This document shows positions 13,096 to 57,073 of a stretch of 64,000 bases of DNA, piece after piece. The notes below the pieces were generated by a model. That model did no database searches. It was given only the letters and a program-made list of their open reading frames with translations, and was not told the origin of the DNA. The DNA lies in the NCBI RefSeq assembly GCF_006741185.1, contig NZ_AP019379.1, forward strand, positions 62,001 through 126,000, read 5' to 3'. Positions within the stretch are counted from its first letter, which is position 1, and every line of letters starts with the position of its first letter. A program made the translations under genes and the position numbers. The stretch is from Buchnera aphidicola (Nipponaphis monzeni) (GTDB lineage Bacteria > Pseudomonadota > Gammaproteobacteria > Enterobacterales > Enterobacteriaceae).

Positions 13096-13980
13096 ATGAA
13101 TAATTTGCTTTTTAAAAAAGAATGGCAAATATGGTTTCCTCAAGAAACACAATCATCGAGCAATGTAAATGTTACAAATAAAAATAGTACAAAATTTACT
13201 TCTTTAAAAAAAATATTATTAAAAAATAATGAAATTAATACAAACGAAAGAAAATACTTAAAAAAAAATAATCAAACAAAAACAATCTATTTGTTAAAAA
13301 AATTTAAGAAAGGAGAACAAATCGGATATTCTGAAGGATTAAAGAAAGGAGAACAAATCGGATATTCTGAAGGATTAAAGAAAGGAGAACAAATCGGATA
13401 TTCTGAAGGATTAAAGAAAGGAGAACAAATCGGATATTCTGAAGGATTAAAGAAAGGAGAACAAATCGGATATTCTGAAGGATTAAAGAAAGGAGAACAA
13501 ATCGGATATTCTGAAGGATTAAAGAAAGGAGTATTACAATATCAAAATAAATACAAAGATATTCAAGAAAAGTTACAAACGTTAATTACTAATTTTAAAA
13601 TATCTTTAAAGGATGTTGATGGCGTAATATCAAATCGCATATTAAATATTATTATTAAAATTACAAAAAAATTCTTTTGTAATGAAATAAAAATACAAAA
13701 AAATAGTATTTTAATTAAAAAAATTAAAAAAATTTTAACCAAGGATCTAATGTTTGCTAAAAAGTTACAATTGCACATTAATCCAAAAGACGAATATATA
13801 ATAAATTATTACTTTGGGAAAATTATAAAATTACATCATTGGCAAATTTTTTGTAATATAAACATTTCTAGAGGTGGTTTCAAAATTATTTCACAACATG
13901 CTAATTATGATAATACTTTACCAACTTATTGGAAAGAATTATGCAAAACAATTATTGTTAAGGAAAATAATGAGCAATAG
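13096..13980 (+). CDS. fliH: Flagellar export regulator FliH with tandem glycine repeats
   Basis: Regulates the FliI export ATPase and links it to the C ring. The product is 294 residues, longer than the roughly 230 of E. coli FliH. The extra length lies mainly in residues 71-145, where a 12-residue unit KKGEQIGYSEGL is repeated six times without change. The repeats place a glycine every four residues, the GxxxG pattern typical of the FliH N-terminal helix. The C-terminal domain (about residues 155-285) is divergent but follows E. coli order, with THPD-like and GGFKI segments. It overlaps fliI by 11 bp. Confidence 0.9.
   Translation: MNNLLFKKEWQIWFPQETQSSSNVNVTNKNSTKFTSLKKILLKNNEINTNERKYLKKNNQTKTIYLLKKFKKGEQIGYSEGLKKGEQIGYSEGLKKGEQIGYSEGLKKGEQIGYSEGLKKGEQIGYSEGLKKGEQIGYSEGLKKGVLQYQNKYKDIQEKLQTLITNFKISLKDVDGVISNRILNIIIKITKKFFCNEIKIQKNSILIKKIKKILTKDLMFAKKLQLHINPKDEYIINYYFGKIIKLHHWQIFCNINISRGGFKIISQHANYDNTLPTYWKELCKTIIVKENNEQ
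13306..13530 (+). repeat. Six perfect 36-bp tandem repeats inside fliH
   Basis: The unit begins AAGAAAGGAGAACAAATCGG and is 36 bp long. Six identical copies start at 13306, 13342, 13378, 13414, 13450 and 13486, followed by a 9-bp partial copy. The length is a multiple of three, so copy-number changes keep the frame. No base differs between copies, implying recent expansion or continuing homogenisation. Confidence 0.98.
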
Positions 13981-45769: not shown

Positions 45770-46393
45770 AATATATGATAATATAAAAAAAATATATACG
45801 CACAAAATATGTATCTTAAATACAAAAAATTATATGTTTTGTATTTAAATTAATTCGAAAACAATATTTTTAAATTACCACTAACGTTAAATACTTTACT
45901 TATATAAATATAAATAAATTGTTTAAAATAATAAGTATTACTTTGATTATTATCATTACTAATGATAATAATCAAAGTATACTTAAAATAAAATTAATTT
46001 ATTAAATATGATATTAACTAAGCAATAAATTTAAACCTAATATTTTTTACATAACATTTTTGAAACATTAGTTTAAATAAACATTAATAGTAAATTACTA
46101 TTAAGAAATAGTTAATAATGTTAATACTTTTTAAAAAAAAATAAATATATTCTCATAATATGTAATAAGTAAACATGTAAAAAAAAGTTATTATAAGCAG
46201 ATTTGTTTAATAATATAACATCTATTATCGTTTTTTATTAAAAATATCTATATATATATTATTAAATGTATCCATACATAAATAAATAAATTTAAACATT
46301 ATATTTACAATATATTTATTTCAATAATTATGATATATGTATAAATTACAATTTAATATTCTATAAAAATAACTATTTATTTTTTAATTAAAA
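45770..46393. other. Gene-free spacer between gnd and metG
   Basis: About 625 bp. Apart from the large hairpin at 45933-45984 nothing is recognised. In larger Buchnera genomes I recall dcd between gnd and metG; no readable trace is seen. Confidence 0.5.
45933..45984 (+). terminator. Long hairpin downstream of gnd
   Basis: Bases 45939-45957 and 45961-45979 are exact reverse complements (19 bp) around a 3-nt loop. A further 5 bp (45933-45937 with 45980-45984) pair across a one-base bulge. This is one of the longest perfect stems in the window. It lies 163 bp past gnd, so it fits a transcription terminator, though no pure T run follows. Confidence 0.7.
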
Positions 46394-53402: not shown

Positions 53403-55606
53403 GTGATAATTGTAGAAGTTGCGTTACCTTTACCTATAAAAAATAATTTTTTTTATTCATTTCCTAAATCAGAAATTTGTCCTGTTATTGGTAGTAGAGT
53501 TATAGTACCTTTCAATAATAGTCAATTAATTGGAATAATTGTTTCCATTAATAACAATAAAACATATTCATTTAAATTAAAAAAAATAATTTCTATAATA
53601 GATCAACAATCAATTTTTACACCATCTACATGGAATTTAATATTGTGGTGTACCGACTATTATCAATGTCATATTAGCTTTATTATATTTAACTTTATAC
53701 CTTACCTATTAAAAAAAGGTAAAACTTTAAAAAAAAAATGTGCTACAAATGTAAAATTACTAAAAAAGGTAATTCTTTAAATAATAGTAAATTACAAAAT
53801 CAACCTAAACAATTACGCGCTTTATTAATTTTAAAAAAACAATCAATTCTTATTAGTAATTTACATAAATACAAAATATCAACTTATGTGCTAAATATAC
53901 TACTTAGAAAAAAATTATGTTATATACACCAATCCTTAATAAAAAAAAAAAATTGGAAACATTTAATTTTAACAAAAAATATATATTACAAGTTGACTAA
54001 TAATAATATTTTAAAGTTAAAACCAATTGTTCAAAATAATACTAAATTTAAATCTTTCGTTATTAAAATAAATACAATATACGATAAAGAAGAAGTTTAC
54101 ATATTTTTATTATTTGAATATTTAAAAAAAGGTTTAAAAACATTAATTTTAGTACCTAATATAGATTATATTTATAATTTAAGCAAATTTTTACAAAAAA
54201 GATTACAAATACCAATTGATATTTATCACACACACATTACTGAAACTAAAAAATTAATTTTATGGAATAAATGTAAAACTGAAGAAGCTGCAATTATTAT
54301 ATCTACTTCAGAAGGAATTTTCCTTCCAATAATTAATTTAGGTATAATCATAGTTAATGAAGAAAGTAACTTGTCTTATAAAATCACTAAAAAATGGACG
54401 TTTAATACTAAAAATTTAGCTATTATGAGATCTTATAAAGAAAATATACCAATTATTTTAGAAGGAAATGAACTTTCTTTAGAAACATTGCATAATATAA
54501 ATATAAAAAAATTTAATTTAATTACAATTAATTCAAAATATGAATCGTTTTTTGTAAAAAAAATAAATCAAACATTAATTGATATAAATCATAAACAATG
54601 TAAAGGTATTTTTTCTATTGAACTAATTGAAAAAGTACAAAAATATTTACTTAATAATCAACAAGTTTGTTTTGTAACTGATAATATATCTAATGCAATA
54701 ACTGTATTGCAGTGTTCTAATTGCAACGTAATAATGAAATGTCAATATTGTCATCAATACTATGAATATAGTAAACATTATCAAGAATTATCTTGCAAAT
54801 ATTGTTTTTTTAAAAAAAATGAACCTTTTTTTTGCACTATTTGTAATTCGTCAAATTATATTCTTATAAAATATAATGTAAGTTTACTAAAAGATAGTAT
54901 TAAGAAAATTTTTTTTGATTTCCCAATCATACATATTACTAACGATTCTACAATGTTTTTAAATAAACATTTAATAAATAAATTTCAATTAAAACATAAC
55001 AATCCATGTATTATTTTAGGAAATAATGATACATTAACAAAATATAAATTAGACAAAATAAAATGTTTAATTTTTTTAAATATCGATGTATACTTTAGAA
55101 GTAATAATTTCAGATCACCAGAATATTTTGGACAAAAATATTATTCTACACTTAGAAAAGTTAGTAACTTTTACACCATTAATACTGAAGTTTTAATACA
55201 ATCCAAAATGTTTAAAAATGCATTAATTCAAAAATTAATTACAAGTAATTATGAAAAATTTTCTTCAACATTATTAAAAATAAGAAGAAAATATGATTTA
55301 CCTCCATATACTCGTCACATAATAATTACTATTAAAAGCAAAAAATATGAATTTTTAACCATGTTTTTCAAAAAGTATTATAAATTTTTAATTACATATT
55401 CTTTGAATTATAAAAATAATTTATGGGTTGTAAAATCCGACATTATTTATTTTAACAAATATTTTAGCACCTTTTATACAACAATATTATTAGTTCATCC
55501 TTCAGTAATTTTTTTAAAAAAACTATCGAAACAATCTATAATTTTTATTAATACAAAACTTTTTTTTAAACATATACAATTAACATTTGATATGGATCCA
55601 ATATAG
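53403..55606 (+). CDS. priA: PriA-like protein, split by a frameshift and lacking helicase motifs
   Basis: PriA restarts stalled forks by loading the primosome. The N-terminal DNA-binding part is in one frame from a GTG at 53403 (MIIVEVALPLP) to a stop at 53780. The rest is in another frame and ends at 55606. The frames join at an A10 run (53729-53738): one extra A, or two fewer, restores a product of about 730 residues, the E. coli size. A second run, A12, lies at 53941-53952. The helicase motifs are gone: the Walker A site (E. coli GVTGSGKTEVY) reads INTIYDKEEVY, DEEH reads NEES, GSATPALET reads EGNELSLET and QVAGRAGR is lost. The eight zinc cysteines (CSNC, CQYC, CKYC, CTIC) are all kept. 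It may be a pseudogene, or a DNA/protein-binding remnant made through polymerase slippage. Confidence 0.85.
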
Positions 55607-55803: not shown

Positions 55804-57073
55804 ATGATTGAAAATAATATTATTACTAATTTAAAATCTAAGGGATTAATATCAAAAATTACTAATGAAAAAAAATTGTTTAAAGAAATTATTTGTAATA
55901 AAATTACATTATATTGTGGATTTGATCCTACTGCTGATAGTTTACATTTAGGACATTTATTACCTTTATTATGTTTAAAACAATTTCAATTACTAGGACA
56001 TAGGCCAATAATTTTAATCGGTGGAGCTACAAGTTTAATAGGTGATCCCTAGCTTTAAAAAAAAAGAACGAAAAATTTTGACAGGAGAAAATATTCATAA
56101 ATGGATACAAAAAATTACTTGTCAAATATCTTTATTTGTTGATTTTAAATGTCATAACCGAGCGATTATTGTTAATAACTACGATTGGTTTAAAAAAATT
56201 AATATAATAAATTTCTTAAGAAATATAGGAAAATGTTTTTCAATTAACACAATGATAAATAAATCTTCTGTAAAAAAACGTATTAATAGGACAGAAAAAG
56301 GAATTTCATTTACTGAATTTTCATACAGTTTATTACAAGCATATGATTTTTTATTATTATATAAAAAATATAATGCAATATTACAAATAGGTGGATCAGA
56401 CCAATGGGGTAATATTATTTCTGGAATAAATTTAGTTGATAAATTATATCATAAAAATGTTTATGGATTAACTACCCCATTATTAACCACATGTAATGGA
56501 TCTAAATTTGGTAAAACAGAAATTGGTACAATATGGTTAGATTCTAAAAAAACTAGTCCATTTAATTTTTATCAATATTGGATTAATATTCCAGATACTG
56601 AAGTTTTTCATTATTTAAAAATGTTTACTTCATTCAGTTTGAAAGAAATACATAACATGCAATTAAATAACAAAAAATCTGAAAATTTTAGTAATTTTCG
56701 TAAAATGTTAGCTGACTATATTACTTTAATAATTCATGGGAAAGAGGGGTTATCTAGTGCACAACGTATTACTAATTATTTATTTACAGATAATATTCAA
56801 CATATTACATTATCGGATATACAACAGTTAATTAAAGATGGCGTTAAATCAATACAATTGAAACACGAAAATTCTTTACAGAACATTTTAGTTTTATCTT
56901 CATTAGCTACATCTAAAAATAATGCTAAAACTATGATTTGTTCCAAAGCTATACGGATTAATAAAAAAATTCAAACAAATTGGAAATATCAATTAACTTA
57001 TAATGATAAATTATTTACACGATATACTTTATTGTCACGAGGAAAAAAAAATCATTGTTTAATTTGTTGGTAA
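55804..57073 (+). CDS. tyrS: Tyrosyl-tRNA synthetase, interrupted by a +1 frameshift
   Basis: Class I synthetase charging tRNA-Tyr. Codons 1-82 (55804-56049) end at CCC followed in frame by TAG (56050-56052). The rest of the protein is in the +1 frame. Skipping one base at CCC-T-AGC restores ...[11 protein letters not shown], exactly where E. coli reads GDPSFKAAERK. The joined product would be 422 residues (E. coli 424) with no other defect. Motifs kept: [16 protein letters not shown] (HIGH), [16 protein letters not shown] (KMSKS) and the S4-like C-terminal domain ending [10 protein letters not shown]. No second tyrosyl synthetase is in the window. The intact downstream part argues for a functional gene read by frameshifting, or for a sequence error. 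Confidence 0.92.

Follow-up and report, generated by a model that had tools for sequence, protein, structure and literature searches.

An interrupted tyrS gene in a Buchnera-type aphid symbiont, and its proposed correction by ribosomal +1 slippage at a CCC-UAG site

How can a bacterium retain a tyrosyl-tRNA synthetase gene whose reading frame is cut short by a stop codon? The question is raised by tyrS in the window, i.e., the whole stretch of 64,000 nucleotides that was analysed. As the first-pass annotation had claimed, the gene is split into 82 codons followed by 340 codons in the +1 frame, and the positions given for the elements at the junction proved exact. The upstream open reading frame (ORF1, 55804–56052, + strand) comprises codons 1–82, carries the HLGH signature and ends ...LIGDP, encoded as GGT GAT CCC TAG. 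The downstream frame (ORF2, 56042–57073, + strand) is readable from a GTG at 56042 for 343 residues, with 340 codons lying after the junction, and overlaps ORF1 by 11 bases. Positions 56040–56049 read AGGTGATCCC, of which the CCC proline codon (56047–56049, + strand) is the proposed +1 slip codon; the TAG stop of the upstream frame (56050–56052, + strand) follows, and then a C. The first eight of these bases, AGGTGATC (56040–56047, + strand), are complementary to the 3' end of the 16S rRNA, which reads GGATCACCTCCTTA. A run of nine A (56057–56065, + strand) begins four bases past the TAG, in the downstream frame. E. coli TyrS reads LIGDPSFKAAERK at the junction, and the +1 reading of the window gene matches it with D-P-S-F-K, a likeness already proposed and now borne out by tblastn. 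In this comparison, ORF1 is 58.5% identical to residues 1–82 of E. coli TyrS and ORF2 50.3% identical to residues 82–423, so that the two pieces abut. ORF2 also scores 274.9 bits against the NCBIfam tyrS family TIGR00234, for which the cut-off is 113.8.

On balance, we favour the view that this is a real and probably recent frame change, tolerated through adventitious, ‘corrective’ +1 frameshifting and not through a programmed shift. It is proposed that the change is tolerated because it is located where ribosomes slip.

The sequence itself points to a Buchnera-type aphid symbiont as the host of the broken gene. The assembly (G000) holds 599,733 bases in 3 contigs and is 98.98% complete. The contig of the window (C1) is 587,781 bases long, with a G+C content of 22.3%. 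Contig C2 (10.4 kb) carries leucine genes, whose names come from their sequence and from a search against plasmids; there, 66 of 118 records were from Buchnera, the ten listed all being Buchnera aphidicola. The plasmid search with tyrS gave nothing useful. Contig C3 (1,526 bases) is N throughout, and the gene-content results rest on the remaining sequence. Elsewhere in the window (13096–13980, + strand), an ORF of the flagellar cluster was seen by eye to repeat a 12-residue unit, KKGEQIGYSEGL, six times head to tail.

The first alternative, which we consider unlikely though it keeps real weight, is that of a sequence or assembly error, or of a minor variant from insects that were pooled, with tyrS being intact in the living cells. 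Finding a gene interrupted that the cell cannot do without is a textbook hint of error, and the relatives lend it further support. Across 118 genomes (G000 included), tyrS was matched in 117; the 84 relatives matched strongly (E <= 1e-80) all have the gene unbroken, as a single open frame no shorter than 422 amino acids. The other 31 matches were weak and were left out, while in G028, a genome that is 49% complete, tyrS lies in four pieces. None of the 84 strong relatives shares the break; the comparison covered relatives from outside the genus, for which G000 was the one genome available. Chance insertion was also simulated in 422 intact genes: CCC came to lie directly before a stop in 0.13% of 1,459,884 single-base insertions and in 0.31% of the 603,951 duplications among them. 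When a C is added to the CC runs of this genome's genes, a CCC-stop results at 585 of 4,518 runs (13%); by itself, therefore, the pattern argues only weakly for design.

Against an error stands a second contig. The protein P0002, from a separate contig of 1,366 bases, is identical over all 343 residues of ORF2. It was called from the GTG and starts MIPSF, as produced by the junction in the window, and the same junction is therefore implied in the second contig. A fault in a single assembly is thus an improbable source of the junction, even if both contigs possibly derive from the same reads. No close intact version of ORF2 was present among the 120 listed of 7,099 matches, the next best listed having 61% identity. 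The 82-residue part gave 227 matches, with none identical among the 120 listed and the best listed showing 67% identity over 95%. Furthermore, 278 A/T runs of at least nine bases stay in frame inside the 422 intact genes, against six breaks found at such runs, which indicates accuracy at harder places than this. The earlier suggestion that CCC is an error for CC is hence made less likely by the second contig but is not removed.

These six breaks come from a census of frameshifts, which took in 436 matched ORFs of G043 and 407 of G018, together with priA as seen in the window; it covers genes with a homologue in G043 or G018, and short terminal breaks can escape it. Seven broken protein genes were found: murB, cls, rlmN, mfd and recC (named after their G043 homologues), priA and tyrS. 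Six of them break at A runs of 9–11 located no later than the first stop, and tyrS alone does not. On C1, the frameshifts at such runs lie at 46176 (murB), 287116 (cls), 299644 (rlmN), 310960 (mfd) and 463022 (recC). The priA gene (window 53403–55606, + strand) changes frame near an A10 run (53729–53738); of its two parts, the downstream one fits the priA family TIGR00595.

Fourteen of the 20 candidate frameshifts were dropped. B0445 was taken for an antisense-rRNA ORF and B0071 for a fused ORF; B0059 and B0548 sit over tRNA genes. The pieces of B0097, B0152, B0153, B0154, B0203, B0204, B0315, B0316, B0479 and B0495 overlap on the query and were read as paralogues lying side by side. The G018 comparison gave six candidates, two of which were dropped too, as they lie over the 16S gene. 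B0009, borderline at first sight, was set aside because the two reference-specific residues precede the gene start here. Among 36 length outliers, the 26 examined (15 + 11) yielded no further frameshift; the remaining 10 are the six known frameshifts (tyrS included) along with B0445, B0071, B0548 and B0529.

It is improbable that two polypeptides are made, with ORF1 stopping at the TAG, translation restarting at the GTG at 56042 and a split TyrRS being assembled from the products. The downstream frame does have this GTG, within the overlap with ORF1, and P0002 was called from it. Nevertheless, it is a possible but poor restart codon, as inspection by eye found no Shine-Dalgarno sequence just before it except an AGG that overlaps the GTG itself. 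The cut presumably falls inside the catalytic domain, which also argues against two separate parts, as does the unsplit tyrS of the 84 strong relatives; the four pieces are those of the 49% complete G028, which is not among the 84.

Equally improbable is that tyrS is a young pseudogene whose activity is supplied by the host, by a co-symbiont or by contig C3. Other genes of this genome are indeed broken, e.g., priA, murB, recC and mfd, and C3, being N only, could carry a TyrRS. However, a check for a second tyrS, which the first-pass annotation had advised, found none in G000, either by a PF00579 search or by tblastn with E. coli TyrS. Besides tyrS, PF00579 picks out one other gene, an ORF of 332 amino acids; its sequence is read as TrpRS (trpS), and it was rejected as another TyrRS on that ground. 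Moreover, tRNA-Tyr is retained among the 31 tRNA genes, and the 340 codons stay open at 22% G+C.

Judged by the residues that they keep, both parts of tyrS are under constraint. Of 149 columns conserved in 98% or more of the 117 homologues of full length (passed by a length and motif filter, among the matches listed), the two parts together keep 141 (94.6%), the third lowest of 118 rows. P0003 and P0004, from Buchnera of Hormaphis cornu and both intact, keep 92.8%; P0089, from Buchnera of Nurudea shiraii, keeps 96.7%, and the remaining rows keep more. Since 141 of the 149 columns are kept and P0003 and P0004 keep fewer, the window gene is fast-evolving yet no worse than intact homologues. This retention of conserved residues speaks against a pseudogene.

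A prfB-like frameshift, selected, programmed and regulated, is very unlikely. In its favour, CCC-U is followed directly by a stop (CCC TAG, 56047–56052) with AGGT upstream, and the anti-Shine-Dalgarno match is unusual for this genome. With 13 upstream bases, its energy is -9.0 kcal/mol, a value reached by 3 of 137 CCC codons counted and by just 27 of 2,746 sampled codons, which places the match in the top 1–2%. The distance to the slip codon is 3 nt from the paired AGGT and 4 nt from its GG, where a review gives 3 nt as the spacing for +1 stimulation (PMC5009743, section 36). Thus, the match and spacing on which the first-pass annotation based a prfB-like stimulator do exist. The 8-nt match, however, extends into the E-site codon and into the slip codon itself; with CCC in the P site, AGGT (56040–56043) is the sole part of AGGTGATC that lies upstream of the E-site codon. 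Once that codon is left out, 4 pairs at -3.3 kcal/mol are left in tyrS, compared with -11.5 for the genome's own prfB, -8.7 for E. coli prfB and -5.8 for G043 prfB, the last of which narrows the contrast. In addition, AGGTGATCCCT is also found in the intact gene B0256, and the stimulator was rejected on this and on the weak pairing. Counting both strands, C1 has 7 copies of AGGTGATC.

Neither the junction nor AGGTGATC is conserved in the relatives examined. A contig scan for tyrS returned 11 loci at 35–42% identity, mostly from Bacteroidota lineages by title. Among 41 loci examined, own locus included, none had AGGTGATC at a G-D-P-S/T site; as no relative's locus has it there, the element is not conserved. 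The junction proline codon, in the 39 loci where it was read, is CCG in 16, CCC in 10, CCA in 8 and CCT in 5, and in these sequences the conserved residues of the junction appear to fix amino acids, not codons. The genome does have a +1 site of its own in prfB, AGGAGG AAT CTT TAA C (C1:441661–441676, L123), a further point in favour of programming. Its stop is UAA rather than UGA, and RF2 autoregulation would be expected to be weakened in G000 because both release factors read UAA. A candidate prfB site, AGGAGGTCACTTTAAC, is carried by G057; the pattern, with UAA or UGA allowed, matched 2 of 20 genomes.

The least credible proposal is that transcription slippage restores the tyrS frame, as proposed for Buchnera poly(A) genes: an A9 run does begin close to the TAG, and six other genes break at such runs, but this run follows the stop and slippage there therefore cannot restore the frame, while all homopolymer insertions reported for Buchnera and E. 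coli fell in A/T runs, the authors concluding that transcription does not readily slip on runs of G or C in either (PMC5574713). The same study reports no instance of a frame being restored by transcription error (PMC5574713).

A ribosomal slip at CCC-UAG, as in the adventitious reading that we favour, is plausible from the tRNA set and the codons involved. A single proline tRNA was found, tRNA-Pro(UGG), and tRNA-Ser(GCU), which reads the next codon after the slip, is present among the 31 tRNA genes. The ribosome would reach CCC, where the sole tRNA-Pro(UGG) would read the codon by a weak wobble pair, and would wait with UAG in the A site. The peptidyl-tRNA may then re-pair one base on, from CCC to CCU, with the first two pairs kept. 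AGC would next be read by tRNA-Ser(GCU), and full-length TyrRS (with GDPSFK) would be made at a reduced level. No dedicated stimulator would act at the slip site; instead, the slip may be eased by the loss of RF3, of the enzymes that modify EF-P and of the other proline tRNAs. Thus, of the earlier claim that an essential gene may depend on a +1 shift, the slip-prone CCC-U before a stop stands, supported by the sole tyrS found and by a P-site tRNA that can re-pair, while prfB-like programming is not supported.

Published work speaks partly for and partly against such a slip. E. coli tRNA-Pro(UGG) is reported to pair weakly with CCC and can shift, m1G37 suppressing the +1 event; when the tRNA is unmodified, each of the four CCC-N sequences allows the shift to a similar extent (PMC4519876). 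In Salmonella, +1 shifts are induced when the GGG proline tRNA is missing (PMC3617221). In E. coli K-12 lacking RF3, the prfB shift rose from ~28% to 47%, with values that vary with the RF2 variant (PMC5373646). Against a slip, removal of cmo5U in Salmonella almost abolished the slippage seen with defective proL, other proline tRNAs being present (PMC3617221), and EF-P without its modification is described as partly active (PMC4399890).

In G000, efp is present with its PGKGQ motif, epmB gave no match and epmA gave only matches below the family cut-off, in larger open frames. EF-P is hence kept while its modifying enzymes EpmA/EpmB were not found; among other genomes, EF-P was looked at in G043 alone. 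Of 20 genomes examined, 8 have epmB (7 over the cut-off), G043 and G018 included, and 12 have none; epmA is over the cut-off in 10 and not in the other 10. These losses are common in small genomes and are therefore not distinctive for G000. No match over the cut-off was obtained for prfC (RF3) in G000. Three further points count against a slip. By tblastn, neither cmoA nor cmoB was detected in G000 or in G043; trmD is present, so that m1G37, a suppressor of +1 slips, probably exists here; and the 432 open frames counted (a set that includes the false ORF B0445) contain 37 CCC-T sites, so a strongly slipping CCC-T would be costly elsewhere.

Should the junction be real, tyrS would show that slipping ribosomes can keep a frameshifted essential gene in service, in symbionts of the Buchnera kind, where frame repair has so far been ascribed to RNA polymerase at A runs. 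A wider claim, which we hold to be doubtful, is that this natural bacterial symbiont lineage relies on ribosomes slipping by +1 to make an aminoacyl-tRNA synthetase it cannot do without, permitted by eroded frame-keeping factors. It is just as tentatively that we count among these the single tRNA-Pro(UGG) and the CmoA/CmoB, EpmA/EpmB and RF3 that were not found. If true, the decay of translation fidelity would buy tolerance for coding damage. A real junction would also be a warning that such genes should not be called pseudogenes or errors without a check. No published report of this case appeared among the matches listed in searches of an open-access library.

Known systems resemble this site to differing degrees. 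Like tyrS, prfB (RF2) has a slip codon before a stop and an AGG upstream; prfB, however, is conserved widely and has its Shine-Dalgarno sequence 3 nt away from a conserved CUU, whereas the tyrS site has a 4-pair match and is not conserved. The poly(A) genes of aphid and ant symbionts (PMC5009743, section 15) are likewise kept though frameshifted and corrected during expression; theirs are long A runs corrected by RNA polymerase, whereas at the tyrS site only the ribosome could do so. Single-base inserts in mitochondria (PMC5009743, section 15) are also natural, lie in essential genes and are tolerated by +1 slips, but in organelles and at other codons. At the CCC_UGA sites of E. coli pheL and Listeria phage tsh (PMC5009743), CCC is again followed by a stop and tRNA-Pro re-pairs in the +1 frame. 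Their stop is UGA, not UAG, and the pheL shift (15% in E. coli) appears incidental, while the use in the phage is functional (PMC5009743). At the same pheL site, the shift reaches only 1.9% in Salmonella, which weakens the case for a slip in tyrS (PMC5009743). E. coli also has other tRNA-Pro species (PMC7022156), whereas UGG is the only one found in G000.

A close parallel is E. coli rpoB, in which ribosomes that slip on CCC-AGG-C make up for an inserted C, no further element nearby being required (PMC7022156). RpoB reaches 60–71% of the wild type, owing partly to translational up-regulation, by way of the UGG tRNA (PMC7022156). In both genes, a single base, an inserted C, changes the frame of an essential, otherwise intact gene. 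In rpoB, tRNA-Pro(UGG) slips on CCC while the A site waits, with no other local element needed, and in tyrS it would do likewise. In rpoB, the insertion lies three codons before the slip and the A site holds the hungry codon AGG, as compared with UAG in tyrS. The rpoB case is a laboratory mutant under selection, proven by mass spectrometry and reporters, and tyrS is known from sequence; if its junction is real, tyrS would be the natural bacterial counterpart of that laboratory case.
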